From Candidatus Bathyarchaeota archaeon (GTDB lineage Archaea; Thermoproteota; Bathyarchaeia; Bathyarchaeales; DTEX01), in the NCBI GenBank assembly GCA_003601835.1, contig PIYB01000005.1, positions 1 through 38,358 on the forward strand: 38,358 bases of DNA, read 5' to 3'. Within the stretch, counting starts at the first letter, position 1. Each line of letters starts with the position of its first letter. The position numbers were made by a program, and so were the translations under genes. The notes under the pieces are model-generated. The model ran no database searches and was not told the DNA's origin. It saw only the letters and a program-made list of their open reading frames with translations. This document shows positions 26,068 through 31,093 of this stretch, in pieces.

Positions 26068-27450
26068 CTACTCGGTTTTAAGCCATGGGTATAATGCCTT
26101 GAGCTTCCGCATTGCTTCTTTGACTTTCTCTTCGGGGTACTCGTATGGTTGAAGCTTTCCAGCGAGATAGTCGTCGAAGGCTTGCATGTCGAAGTGTCCG
26201 TGGCCGCAAAGCAGGAACAAGATCGTCTTTTCTTCCCCTGTTTCTTTGCATCTCAGAGCTTCATCAATGGCAGCTTTAATAGCGTGTGCAGGCTCCGGCG
26301 CCGGGATCAACCCTTCAGTTTTGATGAAAAGGTTTGCTGCGTTGAAAACATCCATCTGGTTGTATGCCACTGTTTTAACCACGCCTTCCTCGTTAAGCAG
26401 CGAAATCGTGGGCGCTATCCCGTGGTAACGCAGTCCACCAGCATGAATCGGCGGCGGTATAAACATGTGTCCAAGCGTGTGCATTTTGAACATCGGGGTC
26501 ATCCGTGCTGTGTCCCCATGGTCATAGATGTATGCTCCCTTCGTCACCGATGGACATGCTGTCGATTCTACGGCTAGAAACTTGACATCTTTTGAAGCCT
26601 TGCCAGAAACCTTGTCGTAGTAAAAGGGCCAATATAAACCGGAAAAGCTGCTTCCGCCGCCTATGCATCCGATGATGATGTCTGGGTAGTCGTCCACCTG
26701 TTCAAGCTGCATCTGCGCTTCCTGTCCTATGACTGTTTGGTGTAAAAGAACATGGTTGACAACGCTTCCAATCGAGTATTTCACGTCTTCATGAGTAACC
26801 GCATCTTCTACAGCTTCGCTTATGGCTATGCCGAGGCTGCCAGGGCTGTCAGGATCTTCTTTCAAGATGCTTCTTCCACTGTTTGTTTTCTCGCTGGGAC
26901 TCGCATAGACCTCTGCGCCCCACGATTCCATCATCACCCTTCGGTAAGGCTTCTGGTTGTAGCTCACCTTCACCATGTACACCGTGGATTTCATGTTAAA
27001 CATCGTGCAGCTAAAAGCCAACGCGGATCCCCATTGGCCTGCGCCTGTTTCCGTGGACAGTCTTTGCACGCCTTCCTCTTTTGCGTAGTAGGCTTGGGCT
27101 ACAGCTGTGTTAGGTTTGTGGCTTCCAGGCGGGCTTACGCCTTCATATTTGTAGTAGATCCTTGCAGGGGTGCCAAGGGCTTTCTCAAGTTTCTCCGCTC
27201 TGTAAAGCGGTGTAGGTCTCCAAAGCCGGTAGACATTGCGTACTTCGTCAGGTATGGGGATGAATCGTTCTTGACTTACCTCTTGCATCACGCATTCTTT
27301 TGGGAAGAGCGCTATAAGCTGCGCTGGTTCAATAGGTTTCTGTGTTGCAGGGTTGATTGGTAGGGGCAACGGCTTCGGCAAATCGGGTTGAATGTTGTAC
27401 CATTGTTTGGGAATTCGCTCTTCGTCTAGGAGTATCTTTTTAGGTGCCAT
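26068..27450 (-). CDS. trpB2: Tryptophan synthase beta chain 2 (TrpB2)
   Basis: TrpB2 joins indole and serine to tryptophan with PLP and, unlike TrpB1, generally works without TrpA. The protein has the long N-terminal part of the TrpB2 family, the PLP lysine K112 in [10 protein letters not shown], the phosphate-binding [11 protein letters not shown] and the C-terminal [10 protein letters not shown]. No other trp biosynthesis gene is in the window, which suits a salvage role. Start choice: the frame is open to a TTG at 27498, but the TATA box at 27502-27512 places transcription near 27480, downstream of that TTG, so the ATG at 27450 ([10 protein letters not shown]) is the start. A TGTACA-type operator lies just upstream of the TATA box. 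Confidence 0.94.
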
Positions 27451-27501: not shown

Positions 27502-27512
27502 CTATTTAAGCC
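27502..27512 (-). promoter_or_regulatory. BRE/TATA box of trpB2
   Basis: On the minus strand the sequence is GGCTTAAATAG, a good archaeal TATA element preceded by purines. It predicts a start about 27480 and a 30-base leader before the ATG at 27450. Confidence 0.55.
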
Positions 27513-27517
27513 TTTTG

Positions 27518-27532
27518 TGTACAAAATTGTAC
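27518..27532 (-). promoter_or_regulatory. TGTACA-type inverted repeat, candidate TRP box operator
   Basis: GTACAAAATTGTAC (27519-27532) is two perfect inverted hexamers, GTACAA and TTGTAC, separated by two bases; with the preceding T one half reads TGTACA. It ends six bases upstream of the trpB2 TATA box. In Methanothermobacter the regulator TrpY binds TRP boxes of sequence TGTACA at trp promoters including trpB2. No trpY-like gene is in this window, so regulation is inferred from site and position. Confidence 0.5.
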
Positions 27533-27580
27533 GTTGAAGTCGCTAGGACCTTAAGAAACCGCAAAATGTAACTCAAATAT

Positions 27581-27820: not shown

Positions 27821-28261
27821 GTGAGCCATCTCAGTCAAAACAGGCCGCAGTATAAAACCCGAACTCTGGACGAGTTCGATGAACTGCTATTGCAGATCAT
27901 GGACGATGTGATAAGAGCTTCTCTCGGAGACAGAAGCGCAAGGATGATTTACGCTCACCTTAAACGGATGCTCGGTTCAAGAACAAAGATCCCTTCTAAC
28001 CTCGACGCTTTTTCTTTAGAGCTAAGAAAGATCCTTTCAGATACCGGACCTCGTTTCAGCTTATCTAAAGGCATATCAGCTTGGGGCACAGCCGCACTGA
28101 TCGAGCGAACGATTGCTAAATGGGTTTGCAAGAAGCTAGGGATACCTTTTACCGCTGTTGGCCCCATAGATTTTTCGTCTTTTATGAAGGATTTGAAGGA
28201 TCTTTACAAAGAAAAGTTGCCGGAATCTGACTCTTTACCGAAAAAGGAGGTGAGCGTTTGA
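27821..28261 (+). CDS. Small signal-transduction-associated protein, NitrOD5-like
   Basis: A 146-residue protein whose central part (about residues 18-105) has the pattern of the archaeal NitrOD5-type output domain: LLQIMDDVIRASLGDRSARM, IYAHLKRMLG, then a C-terminal segment ending ALIERTIAKWVCKKLGI. These domains were described in archaeal signalling proteins and are often next to or fused with sensor kinases; their molecular role is unknown. Here the gene starts with GTG and its stop overlaps the start of the histidine kinase, with AAAGGAGGTGA at 28244-28254 inside its 3' end. The family name is a recollection of pattern and should be checked by profile search. Confidence 0.6.
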   Translation: MSHLSQNRPQYKTRTLDEFDELLLQIMDDVIRASLGDRSARMIYAHLKRMLGSRTKIPSNLDAFSLELRKILSDTGPRFSLSKGISAWGTAALIERTIAKWVCKKLGIPFTAVGPIDFSSFMKDLKDLYKEKLPESDSLPKKEVSV

Positions 28262-30642
28262 AGAGCAATATGGCGGGCATCTTAGCATTTAGCCATGTTG
28301 GAAACAGGAAGATGATGCGAGAGAAGGAGGGAACGGACGCCGAGGTGCAAGACGCTTTTGTTGAGTCAGGAATTAGGTTAAGAAAGATTTTTGAGAATTT
28401 GAGCGAAGCCGTGATCTATATTGACAAGTACGGAAAAATCCTTGATTTAAACAGGAAAGCGTTGGAGCTATACGGCGGTTCAAAAGAAGAACTGTTAGGA
28501 AAGCATTTTACGCGCGTAAACATTTTTTCTCCTAAAAACATGTTAACGCTGATGAAGAATTTTAAGAAGATCCTTTCCGGCGAAGAAACTAGGGTGAACG
28601 TTTCTTTCAAAAACAAAAAGGGTCAAAACCTTTCTCTGCAATGCTCAACCTACGCCGTGAGAATAAACGGTGAACTGGACGGTTTTTTGGTTATTCTCAC
28701 AGACATCACTGAACGTAGAAAAGCGGAATTGCAGGCTAAAGAGGCTCGTGAATATGCTGAGGACATTGTTGAAACGATACGTGAGCCTCTTGTTGTGTTG
28801 GACAAGGATCTCCGTGTAGTCTCAGCTAACAGCGCTTTCTACCGAACTTTTAAGGTGACACCTGAAAGGGTTGAGAAACATTCCATTTACGAACTGAGCA
28901 AGTACAAGTTGGACATTGCAGAGCTACGTACTCGGTTGCAACAGGTTCTCGCTGAGAACGTTGCTATTGAAGATTTTGAGGTTGAGCATAACTTTCCGAA
29001 GATCGGATGGCGGATAATGCCGTTGAACGCTCGGCGGGTATCCAGTAAAACGAACAAGGAGCCTTTGATTCTTCTTGCCATAGAGGATGGCACTAGACGC
29101 AAAGAAGCGGAGAAAGAGCTGTTATTCCAGCGGAAACTGTTTGACGCGTTGATGGACAACATTCCTGACGCAATCTACTTCAAAGATGCAGAATCCCGTT
29201 TCATCAGAATCAATAAAGCGCATGCGATGAGAATGGGGCTTAAAGCTCCTGAAGAAGCAATAGGAAAAATGGACTTCGACTTCTATCCGCTGGAGTTTGC
29301 TCAGAAAGCCTATGAGGACGAGCAGAACATTGTTAAAACCGGCAAGCCGCTTCTCAGAAAAACCGAGCGTATCGTGGACAAGAACGGGCAGGTTCGATGG
29401 GTTTCAGCCACAAAGGTGCCGATCAGGGATGATCTGGGTCAAGTTGTGGGAATAGTCGGCATCTCCCGGGACATCACGAAGCTCAAACAGATGGAAAAAA
29501 AGCTGAGAAAATATTCTCAACGTTTAGAGGAGATGGTTAAGGAGAGAACTAGGCAGCTGAGAAAAAGCGAGGAGAAATATCGTAGGCTCATACAACACAT
29601 ACCCGATGTAACGTGGACATCCACCCAAGAAGGCAAGACTATATTCATCAGCGACAACGTGAAACAGGTGTTTGGGTATACCCCGGAAGAAATTTACAGA
29701 AAAGGCGAACGCCTATGGTTTGGAAGAATCCATCCTGACGATTTAGAAAAGGTAAAGAAAGCATACAAAGCATTGTTTGAGAAGGGAGAACCATACGAGG
29801 TTGAATACAGAATCAGAAGGAAAGACGGAAAATGGATCTGGTTGTACGATAGAGCGAGGACCACTTACTGGAACGCTGGTCGACGGTACGCTGATGGCGC
29901 CTTCTCAGACATCACTGAACGCAAAGAGCTTGAAGAACGGCTAAAAAAGGCTGAAAGAATGGCTGCGATCGGTTCAACAGCGGCGATGGTCGGGCATGAT
30001 CTTCGTAATCCGCTTCAGGTAATGATGAACTTGGTTTACGTGGGGAAAAAGATAGTCAAGTCGATGCCGTCGTCGCTTGCATTTAAACCTCGGTTTGAGA
30101 AAATATGCGAGGCGATGGAGAGGCAAGTGCAGTACATGGACAAAATTGTTTCTGACCTTCAGGATTACGCGAGACCTATGCGGCTTGAATTAGCTGAGAC
30201 AAGCTTGTTAACCATTATGAAAAATGTGCTGAAAACACTAAGTATACCGAAAAACATCGAGGTGGCAGTAATGGTCCCTGAAGATTTCCCCGCCTTGTTA
30301 GTTGATTCTCATTTAATGACACGGGTTTTCACTAACTTGGTGTTGAACGCCTTCCAAGCTATGCCACAAGGCGGTCGGCTAACGATAGAAGCGTCACTAA
30401 CAGACAAAGAAGCGTTGGTGCACGTAAAAGACACAGGAATCGGAATAGAAAAGGAAAATATAAGCAAAATATTCAATCCTCTGTTCACTACGAAGGCGAA
30501 AGGGCAGGGGCTTGGTTTACCTGTTTGCAAAAGAATAGTTGAGGCTCATGGAGGCAGCATCACGGTTCAAAGTACTGTTAACAAGGGCACAATCTTCACT
30601 GTTAAGATACCGCTCAGACAGGAGGTGAAAAAGGGTGGATAA
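28258..30642 (+). CDS. Multi-PAS sensor histidine kinase
   Basis: A soluble 794-residue kinase with no membrane segment. Four PAS domains can be seen: about 38-155 (IFENLSEAVIYIDKYGKILD), 160-285 (ETIREPLVVLDKDLRVVSAN ... LLAIEDGTRR), 288-410 (NIPDAIYFKDAESRFIRINK) and 435-560 (HIPDVTWTSTQEGKTIFISD). Then comes the dimerisation helix with phospho-acceptor H580 in GHDLRNPLQ, and the ATPase domain with N box NLVLNAFQAMP, G1 DTGIGI and G2 GQGLGLPVCK. All motifs are intact. It probably senses a cytoplasmic redox or small-molecule signal. TTG start overlapping the upstream stop, with a strong GGAGGTGA ribosome site; the response regulator overlaps its 3' end. Confidence 0.95.
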   Translation: MKSNMAGILAFSHVGNRKMMREKEGTDAEVQDAFVESGIRLRKIFENLSEAVIYIDKYGKILDLNRKALELYGGSKEELLGKHFTRVNIFSPKNMLTLMKNFKKILSGEETRVNVSFKNKKGQNLSLQCSTYAVRINGELDGFLVILTDITERRKAELQAKEAREYAEDIVETIREPLVVLDKDLRVVSANSAFYRTFKVTPERVEKHSIYELSKYKLDIAELRTRLQQVLAENVAIEDFEVEHNFPKIGWRIMPLNARRVSSKTNKEPLILLAIEDGTRRKEAEKELLFQRKLFDALMDNIPDAIYFKDAESRFIRINKAHAMRMGLKAPEEAIGKMDFDFYPLEFAQKAYEDEQNIVKTGKPLLRKTERIVDKNGQVRWVSATKVPIRDDLGQVVGIVGISRDITKLKQMEKKLRKYSQRLEEMVKERTRQLRKSEEKYRRLIQHIPDVTWTSTQEGKTIFISDNVKQVFGYTPEEIYRKGERLWFGRIHPDDLEKVKKAYKALFEKGEPYEVEYRIRRKDGKWIWLYDRARTTYWNAGRRYADGAFSDITERKELEERLKKAERMAAIGSTAAMVGHDLRNPLQVMMNLVYVGKKIVKSMPSSLAFKPRFEKICEAMERQVQYMDKIVSDLQDYARPMRLELAETSLLTIMKNVLKTLSIPKNIEVAVMVPEDFPALLVDSHLMTRVFTNLVLNAFQAMPQGGRLTIEASLTDKEALVHVKDTGIGIEKENISKIFNPLFTTKAKGQGLGLPVCKRIVEAHGGSITVQSTVNKGTIFTVKIPLRQEVKKGG

Positions 30643-31093
30643 AACGAAGAAAAGAATCTTAATCGTCGACGATGACAAAGACATTCTGGAAAGCATAAAA
30701 GAGATCCTAGAAGCAGACGGCTACCGTTTGGACACAGCTGAAAACGGTTGTGAAGCCATAGAAAAAGCGAAGAACAACTTTTACAACATGGCTTTGCTGG
30801 ACATAAAGCTCCCCGACATGGAAGGCACAGAACTGCTTACCCAGCTGCCAGCAACCACCCCTAAAATGATGAAGGTCATAATCACCGGATATCCCAGCCA
30901 AGACAACGCCATCAGATCGCTGAACCTTGGAGCGGACGCTTACCTTACAAAGCCCATCTGGCCTGAAAAACTGTTAGAGGTCGTGGAAAATAAACTGAGA
31001 GAACAAGAAGAAATCGAAGAAATGAGCCAAGCAAAGATGGATGAACTCATCCAAGCACGTATTCGACGGCTAGAAAAAGAGCACGGTCTCTAG
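30635..31093 (+). CDS. Single-domain response regulator
   Basis: A CheY-like receiver of 152 residues: acidic pocket D12-D14 in ILIVDDDKD, phospho-acceptor D56 in MALLDIKLPD, the switch Thr in VIITGYPS and the conserved Lys in AYLTKPIW. After residue ~120 only a charged helical tail follows (QAKMDELIQARIRRLEKEHG), so there is no DNA-binding domain; output must be by protein contact, perhaps with the NitrOD5-like protein. GTG start at 30635, eight bases inside the kinase gene, with GGAGGTGAAA upstream, so kinase and regulator are made together as a cognate pair. Confidence 0.94.
   Translation: MDKTKKRILIVDDDKDILESIKEILEADGYRLDTAENGCEAIEKAKNNFYNMALLDIKLPDMEGTELLTQLPATTPKMMKVIITGYPSQDNAIRSLNLGADAYLTKPIWPEKLLEVVENKLREQEEIEEMSQAKMDELIQARIRRLEKEHGL

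Follow-up and report, generated by a model that had tools for sequence, protein, structure and literature searches.

Which protein reads the short inverted repeat in front of an archaeal trpB2 gene, and what does it do to that gene? The repeat lies in a 38,358-nucleotide stretch of DNA (the window), contig 30 of a 1.25-Mb assembly that is 85% complete, and the closest named relatives of the window, judged by trpB2, are Candidatus Bathyarchaeota. We analysed the window, its own genome and its relatives, and the explanation that best fits the results as a whole is a predicted TrpY-family operator on trpB2, repressing the gene when tryptophan is plentiful (probability about 0.75).

The trpB2 promoter carries a pair of TRP-box-like hexamers

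The trpB2 gene (26068..27450, minus strand) encodes a TrpB-like PLP enzyme of 460 aa, which scored above the cut-offs of both NF009057 (726 bits, cut-off 366) and TIGR01415 (657 bits, cut-off 519). Its likely start codon is at 27448-27450 (MAPKK...). A motif search of the window found GTACAAAATTGTAC at 27519-27532 with zero mismatches, and the palindrome GTACAA-AA-TTGTAC (27519..27532) reported by the first-pass annotation is thus present and exact. The sense of trpB2 is the minus strand, on which the site reads CGTACA-ATTT-TGTACA (27518-27533). It consists of a proximal TRP-box-like hexamer, TGTACA (27518..27523, minus strand), which is nearest to the TATA box and conserved in position in relatives, and a distal hexamer, CGTACA (27528..27533, minus strand), which has one mismatch to TGTACA and was recognised from the sequence and from the composite pattern described below. 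The two hexamers are 10 bp apart, start to start, or about one helical turn.

Between the boxes and the TATA box CTTAAATA (27503..27510, minus strand), which recurs in relatives, lies CAAAAGG (27511..27517, minus strand), a stretch that from its position and the consensus we take to be BRE-like. The full unit in the sense of trpB2 is therefore CGTACA-ATTT-TGTACA-CAAAAGG-CTTAAATA, and this operator-promoter unit of box, N4, box, BRE-like stretch and TATA box (27503..27533, minus strand) matched the composite pattern with 1 mismatch. The distance to the TATA box, previously given as six bases, is 7 bases from the proximal hexamer and 8 from the end of the palindrome. TGTACA is the TRP-box sequence of TrpY, as the first-pass annotation also stated; in the open-licence literature we found no paper pairing this box sequence with TrpY.

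On the opposite side of the site the nearest ORF begins at 27821, at a distance of 288 bp, so the site most likely serves trpB2. That ORF (27821-28261) encodes 146 aa with no Pfam match, and downstream of it are a PAS histidine kinase (28258-30642) and a response regulator receiver protein (30635-31093). On the other flank, a stand-alone ChrB_C domain protein (PF09828; 25482-25922) adjoins an MFS transporter.

Position and conservation lift the site above chance

Palindromic symmetry by itself does not make the site stand out. The window holds 12 perfect 6-2-6 palindromes, and the motif with up to 2 mismatches occurs twice in it, against 0.93 expected. Exact GTACAANNTTGTAC occurs in one place only in the whole 1.25-Mb assembly and was too strict as a regulon probe. 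The bare pair TGTACANNNNTGTACA was rejected as well: with up to 1 mismatch it gave 35 matches against 41 for the control (one strand, 21 family genomes), and many of the inspected matches lay within ORFs. Because the bare pair was no usable probe, we adopted a composite pattern of box, box, BRE (NNNAAG as the BRE-like portion) and TATA, TGTACANNNNTGTACANNNAAGNNTTAAATA, and searched with up to 3 mismatches in 162 genomes of the order.

The results showed 126 matches in 82 genomes, against 5 for the reversed control in the same 162 genomes; the pattern had been drawn from trpB2 promoters of the family, and the matches at trpE and SerK-like genes are the independent part of this result. By coordinates, the targets were trpE (62), trpB2 (44) and a SerK-like gene (7), with 13 unassigned, and 113 of the 126 matches end 39-148 bp before the matched start of one of these three genes. 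Among the 13 unassigned matches, two precede trpE at contig edges (tblastn; L267, L268), three are opposite-strand readings of pairs at trpE, trpB2 or SerK-like targets and one (G044:C1:16263) stands just before a trpY; the 7 left over are near the control number (5). For target and neighbour counts the lower limits were 507 bits for trpB2-like matches and 75 bits for TrpY matches, and target counts also omit one piece of a split trpE (G071).

Counted by gene, the composite unit precedes 62 of 84 trpE entries, and a pair with up to 2 mismatches was found in 1 of 16 readable others, with 4 contig-edge or split trpE entries left out. For trpB2 genes scoring at least 600 bits, a line of our own choice, 43 of 82 carry the composite unit; of the others, 38 were readable and 25 of these have a pair at up to 2 mismatches, together 68 of 81 (L308, L322 and L326 were too short to read). 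Seven of nine SerK-like genes carry the composite unit; the remaining two have no pair at up to 2 mismatches. When the spacing was left free, the last box lay 5-8 bp before a TATA-like element in 15 of 16 located cases, the rule for this element having located none in 9 further sequences. In genus g25, some genomes carry three such boxes, spaced in 10-bp steps.

In the window's own family, all 17 trpB2 genes read, the window's included, have the pair directly before the TATA box with 0-3 mismatches (0 in one gene, 1 in six, 2 in six and 3 in four). Absence of the repeat before trpB2 in close relatives had been named in advance as the result that would speak against an operator, and the reverse was found. 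The likeness to TrpY boxes was also aptly drawn: across the order, the same box pair precedes both trp operons and trpB2 genes. Additional sites at trp genes, a search for which had been proposed too, turned up in relatives; in the own genome the pair before trpB2 is the sole intergenic one with up to 1 mismatch.

We also read 80 loci from named genomes. Clear pairs were found in termite Bathycorpusculum and other Bathyarchaeota, and also in one Jordarchaeia, one of two Hadesarchaea, one Methanoculleus and two genomes labelled Euryarchaeota. Among these 80 loci, no clear pair was seen in, for example, Bathyarchaeum (L016, L017), and none of the bacterial loci had a pair at up to 2 mismatches.

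These counts bear on the simplest alternative, that the repeat is a chance palindrome or a piece of a general promoter consensus. The many 6-2-6 palindromes of the window and the unenriched bare pair in the family would suit it. Against it stand the 126 composite matches for 5 in the control, their position, nearly always before two trp loci and one serine-related gene, and the own genome's three other pairs with up to 1 mismatch, all of which sit inside ORFs. We regard chance as extremely improbable; it is place and conservation that lift the site above it.

A TrpY-family regulator is encoded in the genome and across the order

The first-pass annotation had inferred an analogous tryptophan-responsive repressor and proposed a search of the genome for TrpY homologues. 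The search found one at G000:C23:8610-9095, with 192.3-192.9 bits against a curated cut-off of 180 (NCBIfam TrpY_fam). A regulator gene is thus present as expected, and it encodes a member of the TrpY family itself, not a mere analogue. PF01842 (ACT) was unsuitable as a finder of this protein: it pointed to four other places, two of which, when opened, were enzyme-subunit-like ORFs in amino-acid clusters (L129 and L131 are not among them).

TrpY-family matches are present in 106 of the 162 genomes of the order, above the cut-off in 99. The ORF of 167-185 aa beside trpB2 in L203, L205 and L207 also belongs to the family (NCBIfam NF053754). Of 105 TrpY genes, 79 have a trpB2-type gene beside them within 1.5 kb, 75 in divergent and 4 in tandem orientation; 75 of these 79 adjacent genes are 93-250 bp from it. 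The other 26, including all 18 of the own family and thus the own-genome gene, are not adjacent to a trpB2-type gene. Box pairs were found between trpY and trpB2, and before trpY in other families (e.g. L253, L255, L233, L236). In the own genome, the 220 bp upstream of trpY contain no pair at up to 2 mismatches, and the same holds for 11 other own-family trpY genes with a located start (G012 partly masked), a count that excludes G019, whose start was not located, and 5 further own-family genomes with TrpY.

Outside the order, L019, L022, L062, L071 and L046 have TrpY_fam above the cut-off, and the pair with up to 2 mismatches in their trpB2 upstream regions was reached by 0 of 40 shuffles. In other groups, TrpY accompanies a weaker site in L036, both are absent from L026, L040 and L018, and L014 (above the cut-off), L012 and L008 have a TrpY-family match without the site.

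We then examined the fold of the regulator. The TrpY of a relative (L021), modelled from 9 sequences, gave a mean pLDDT of 88 and a pTM of 0.71, with N-terminal helices and short strands followed by a beta-alpha-beta-beta-alpha-beta arrangement. The top Foldseek matches were IlvN ACT domains, aligned over 77 columns with a TM of 0.61-0.63 by target length, together with ACT-bearing dehydrogenases; below them came proteins of the Lrp type, matched over the whole length and with a poor fit (rmsd about 10). The model supports an N-terminal helical part and an ACT-like domain in this protein. Pfam ACT matched L021 TrpY at 4.6e-5, below its cut-off, and the TrpY of the own genome matched HTH_38 at 0.0042, also below the cut-off, with no ACT match. 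A sequence search of the PDB with a TrpY query gave nothing useful.

The co-occurrence of site and regulator was then assessed. Over all 162 genomes it is significant (69/13/36/44, p = 2e-7), which we do not count as proof because the association is lost within the 97 genomes that have trpE or trpB2 (68/11/17/1, p = 0.46), most of which have TrpY either way. TrpY without a matching site is found in some clades, e.g. Bathyarchaeum genus g11, where it may have changed its site or act elsewhere. According to the parts of PMC6737238 available, the TrpY homologue of Thermococcus does not control its trp operon.

Another DNA-binding protein might read the boxes, for example an Lrp/AsnC-type regulator. 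AsnC-type HTH ORFs (Lrp/AsnC family, PF01037) lie directly upstream of trpE in L206 (1023-1463), L208 (4802-5278) and L209 (946-1422), and one lies on the opposite strand before trpE in L191; there are also site-bearing genomes without a TrpY match, e.g. G089 (97% complete), G004 (92%) and G058 (91%). However, such ORFs were present in only 4 of 20 stretches inspected, TrpY is the recurrent neighbour of trpB2, and the box pairs between the two genes point the same way. We consider an Lrp/AsnC-type reader improbable and an operator for a TrpY-family regulator highly probable.

Predicted action on trpB2

Binding by TrpY, with tryptophan as the ligand, is what we infer from the family, and tryptophan probably acts as the switch for trpB2. 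One or two TrpY dimers would bind the box pair through the N-terminal helical part, and tryptophan would bind the C-terminal ACT-like domain. The loaded regulator would cover roughly -39 to -54, with the start site assumed from the TATA box, and would keep TFB/TBP off the promoter; exclusion of TFB is allowed by the layout, since the boxes abut the BRE-like stretch. The gene would then be silent at ample tryptophan and expressed when tryptophan is scarce.

The sign of regulation is the least sure part of this reading. A TrpY-family protein could instead bind the pair as an activator, upstream of the BRE, and recruit TFB/TBP at low tryptophan. In this promoter, however, AAAAG of the BRE-like stretch and TTAAATA look strong against the consensus, and help with recruitment seems unneeded. 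In trpE, trpB2 and SerK-like promoters the pair does directly adjoin the BRE-like stretch on its upstream side, a place where archaeal activators bind: Tar on trp promoters, TFB-RF1 and EarA. The Tar paper itself notes that archaeal activators, too, use sites upstream of BRE/TATA (excerpts of PMC6737238, PMC5937170 and PMC10665913). The characterised TrpY, that of Methanothermobacter, is a repressor of trp genes (PMC6737238, in part). We consider activation unlikely and favour repression, which is reasonably likely if the site is a TrpY-family operator.

Comparison with known archaeal systems

The site appears to work like the TrpY/TRP-box control of Methanothermobacter thermautotrophicus, with which it shares a TrpY-family regulator, TGTACA-like boxes and, as targets, the trp operon and trpB2. 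A 2008 paper reportedly has TrpY regulation of trpB2 in its title. In Methanothermobacter the promoters of trpY and trpE overlap and contain the boxes, and TrpY is a repressor of its own gene as well (PMC6737238, in part). Across the order, by contrast, most trpY genes are divergent to trpB2; the trpY of the own genome is unlinked and without an upstream box pair, and no trp operon was found in that genome. We class the site as a variant of that system because boxes for trpY autoregulation were sought in the own genome and none was found.

Tar (TK0271) of Thermococcus kodakarensis likewise has a palindrome just upstream of the BRE/TATA of trp genes (TGGACA-N8-TGTCCA), but its sequence and spacing differ and the excerpts describe it as an activator, possibly MarR-like. 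For TFB-RF1 and EarA of Thermococcales, too, the site is a short palindrome or a set of repeats that keeps a constant distance from the BRE, upstream of it; as far as the available passages go, they differ in motif sequences and targets, act at a weak BRE and are activators. Further partial sources are PMC3729527 and PMC5120207. In the parts available, the 2019 paper (PMC6737238) gives TrpY homologues for methanogens, haloarchaea, Archaeoglobaceae and Thermococcales. For Bathyarchaeia, our search of the open-licence literature returned no paper on either TrpY or its boxes. By our prediction a tryptophan-type control circuit, so far studied in a methanogen, is present in uncultured Bathyarchaeia too, and in single cases in Hadesarchaea and Jordarchaeia.

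A stand-alone trpB2 and a SerK-like gene

In the own genome, 85% complete, we found no trpE, IGPS or operon-type trpB1. Ten genomes have the site and trpB2 without trpE, including G004, G005, G017 and G024 (92-99% complete), and IGPS above the cut-off was absent in the first three of these (92-96% complete), which the search covered, as it did not G024. Because near-complete, site-bearing relatives also are without trpE or IGPS, the lone occurrence of trpB2 is probably genuine and not simply the result of an assembly gap. The predicted operator thus seems to control a stand-alone trpB2, the only visible target in the own genome, whose product would combine scavenged indole with (phospho)serine to form tryptophan. 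This touches an old puzzle, the role of trpB2 in a genome without other trp genes, a situation noted for P. horikoshii (PMC1854888, in part); a conserved trp operator on a lone trpB2 argues that the gene makes tryptophan.

The SerK-like gene encodes a protein of about 150 aa in 9 of 21 family genomes, all of genus g3 (L140:1523-1553, L141, L150-L158). Its match to the free serine kinase SerK (PDB 5x0b, E 1e-7) covers residues 17-93, and the protein, shorter than SerK, scored 54 bits with NF053625, far below the cut-off of 380. Its function is a guess from sequence, putatively related to serine kinases. The promoter of this SerK/SbnI-like gene carries the composite box-box-BRE-TATA unit, and the protein could supply O-phosphoserine, a possible link to TrpB2; it would tie the regulon to a report, cited in the available part of PMC11917138, that TrpB2 enzymes use O-phospho-L-serine. 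We tentatively suggest, at somewhat less than even odds, that TrpY has kept control of the lone trpB2, and in one genus of the SerK/SbnI-like gene, in lineages from which the trp operon has been lost, as a regulon for indole-to-tryptophan salvage and not for de novo synthesis.

Similar boxes and neighbouring genes elsewhere

At L139:440-482 (G003:C58), two TGTACATTTCTGTACA-kind box pairs lie just downstream of a TATA-like element and precede an ORF of the 6-pyruvoyl-tetrahydropterin-synthase family (PF01242), a layout unlike that of the trp genes. At L134:600-650 (G006:C23), TGTACA repeats precede a 166-aa HTH ORF (DUF7347, HTH_5), possibly another regulator with a similar site, which adjoins an alpha-mannosidase-like ORF named by eye. 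In genus g25, an ORF of the CutA1 family lies directly upstream of the trpE promoter (L200:5203-5529, assigned by PF03091; L201:1067-1393 and L204:5444-5764, assigned by eye).
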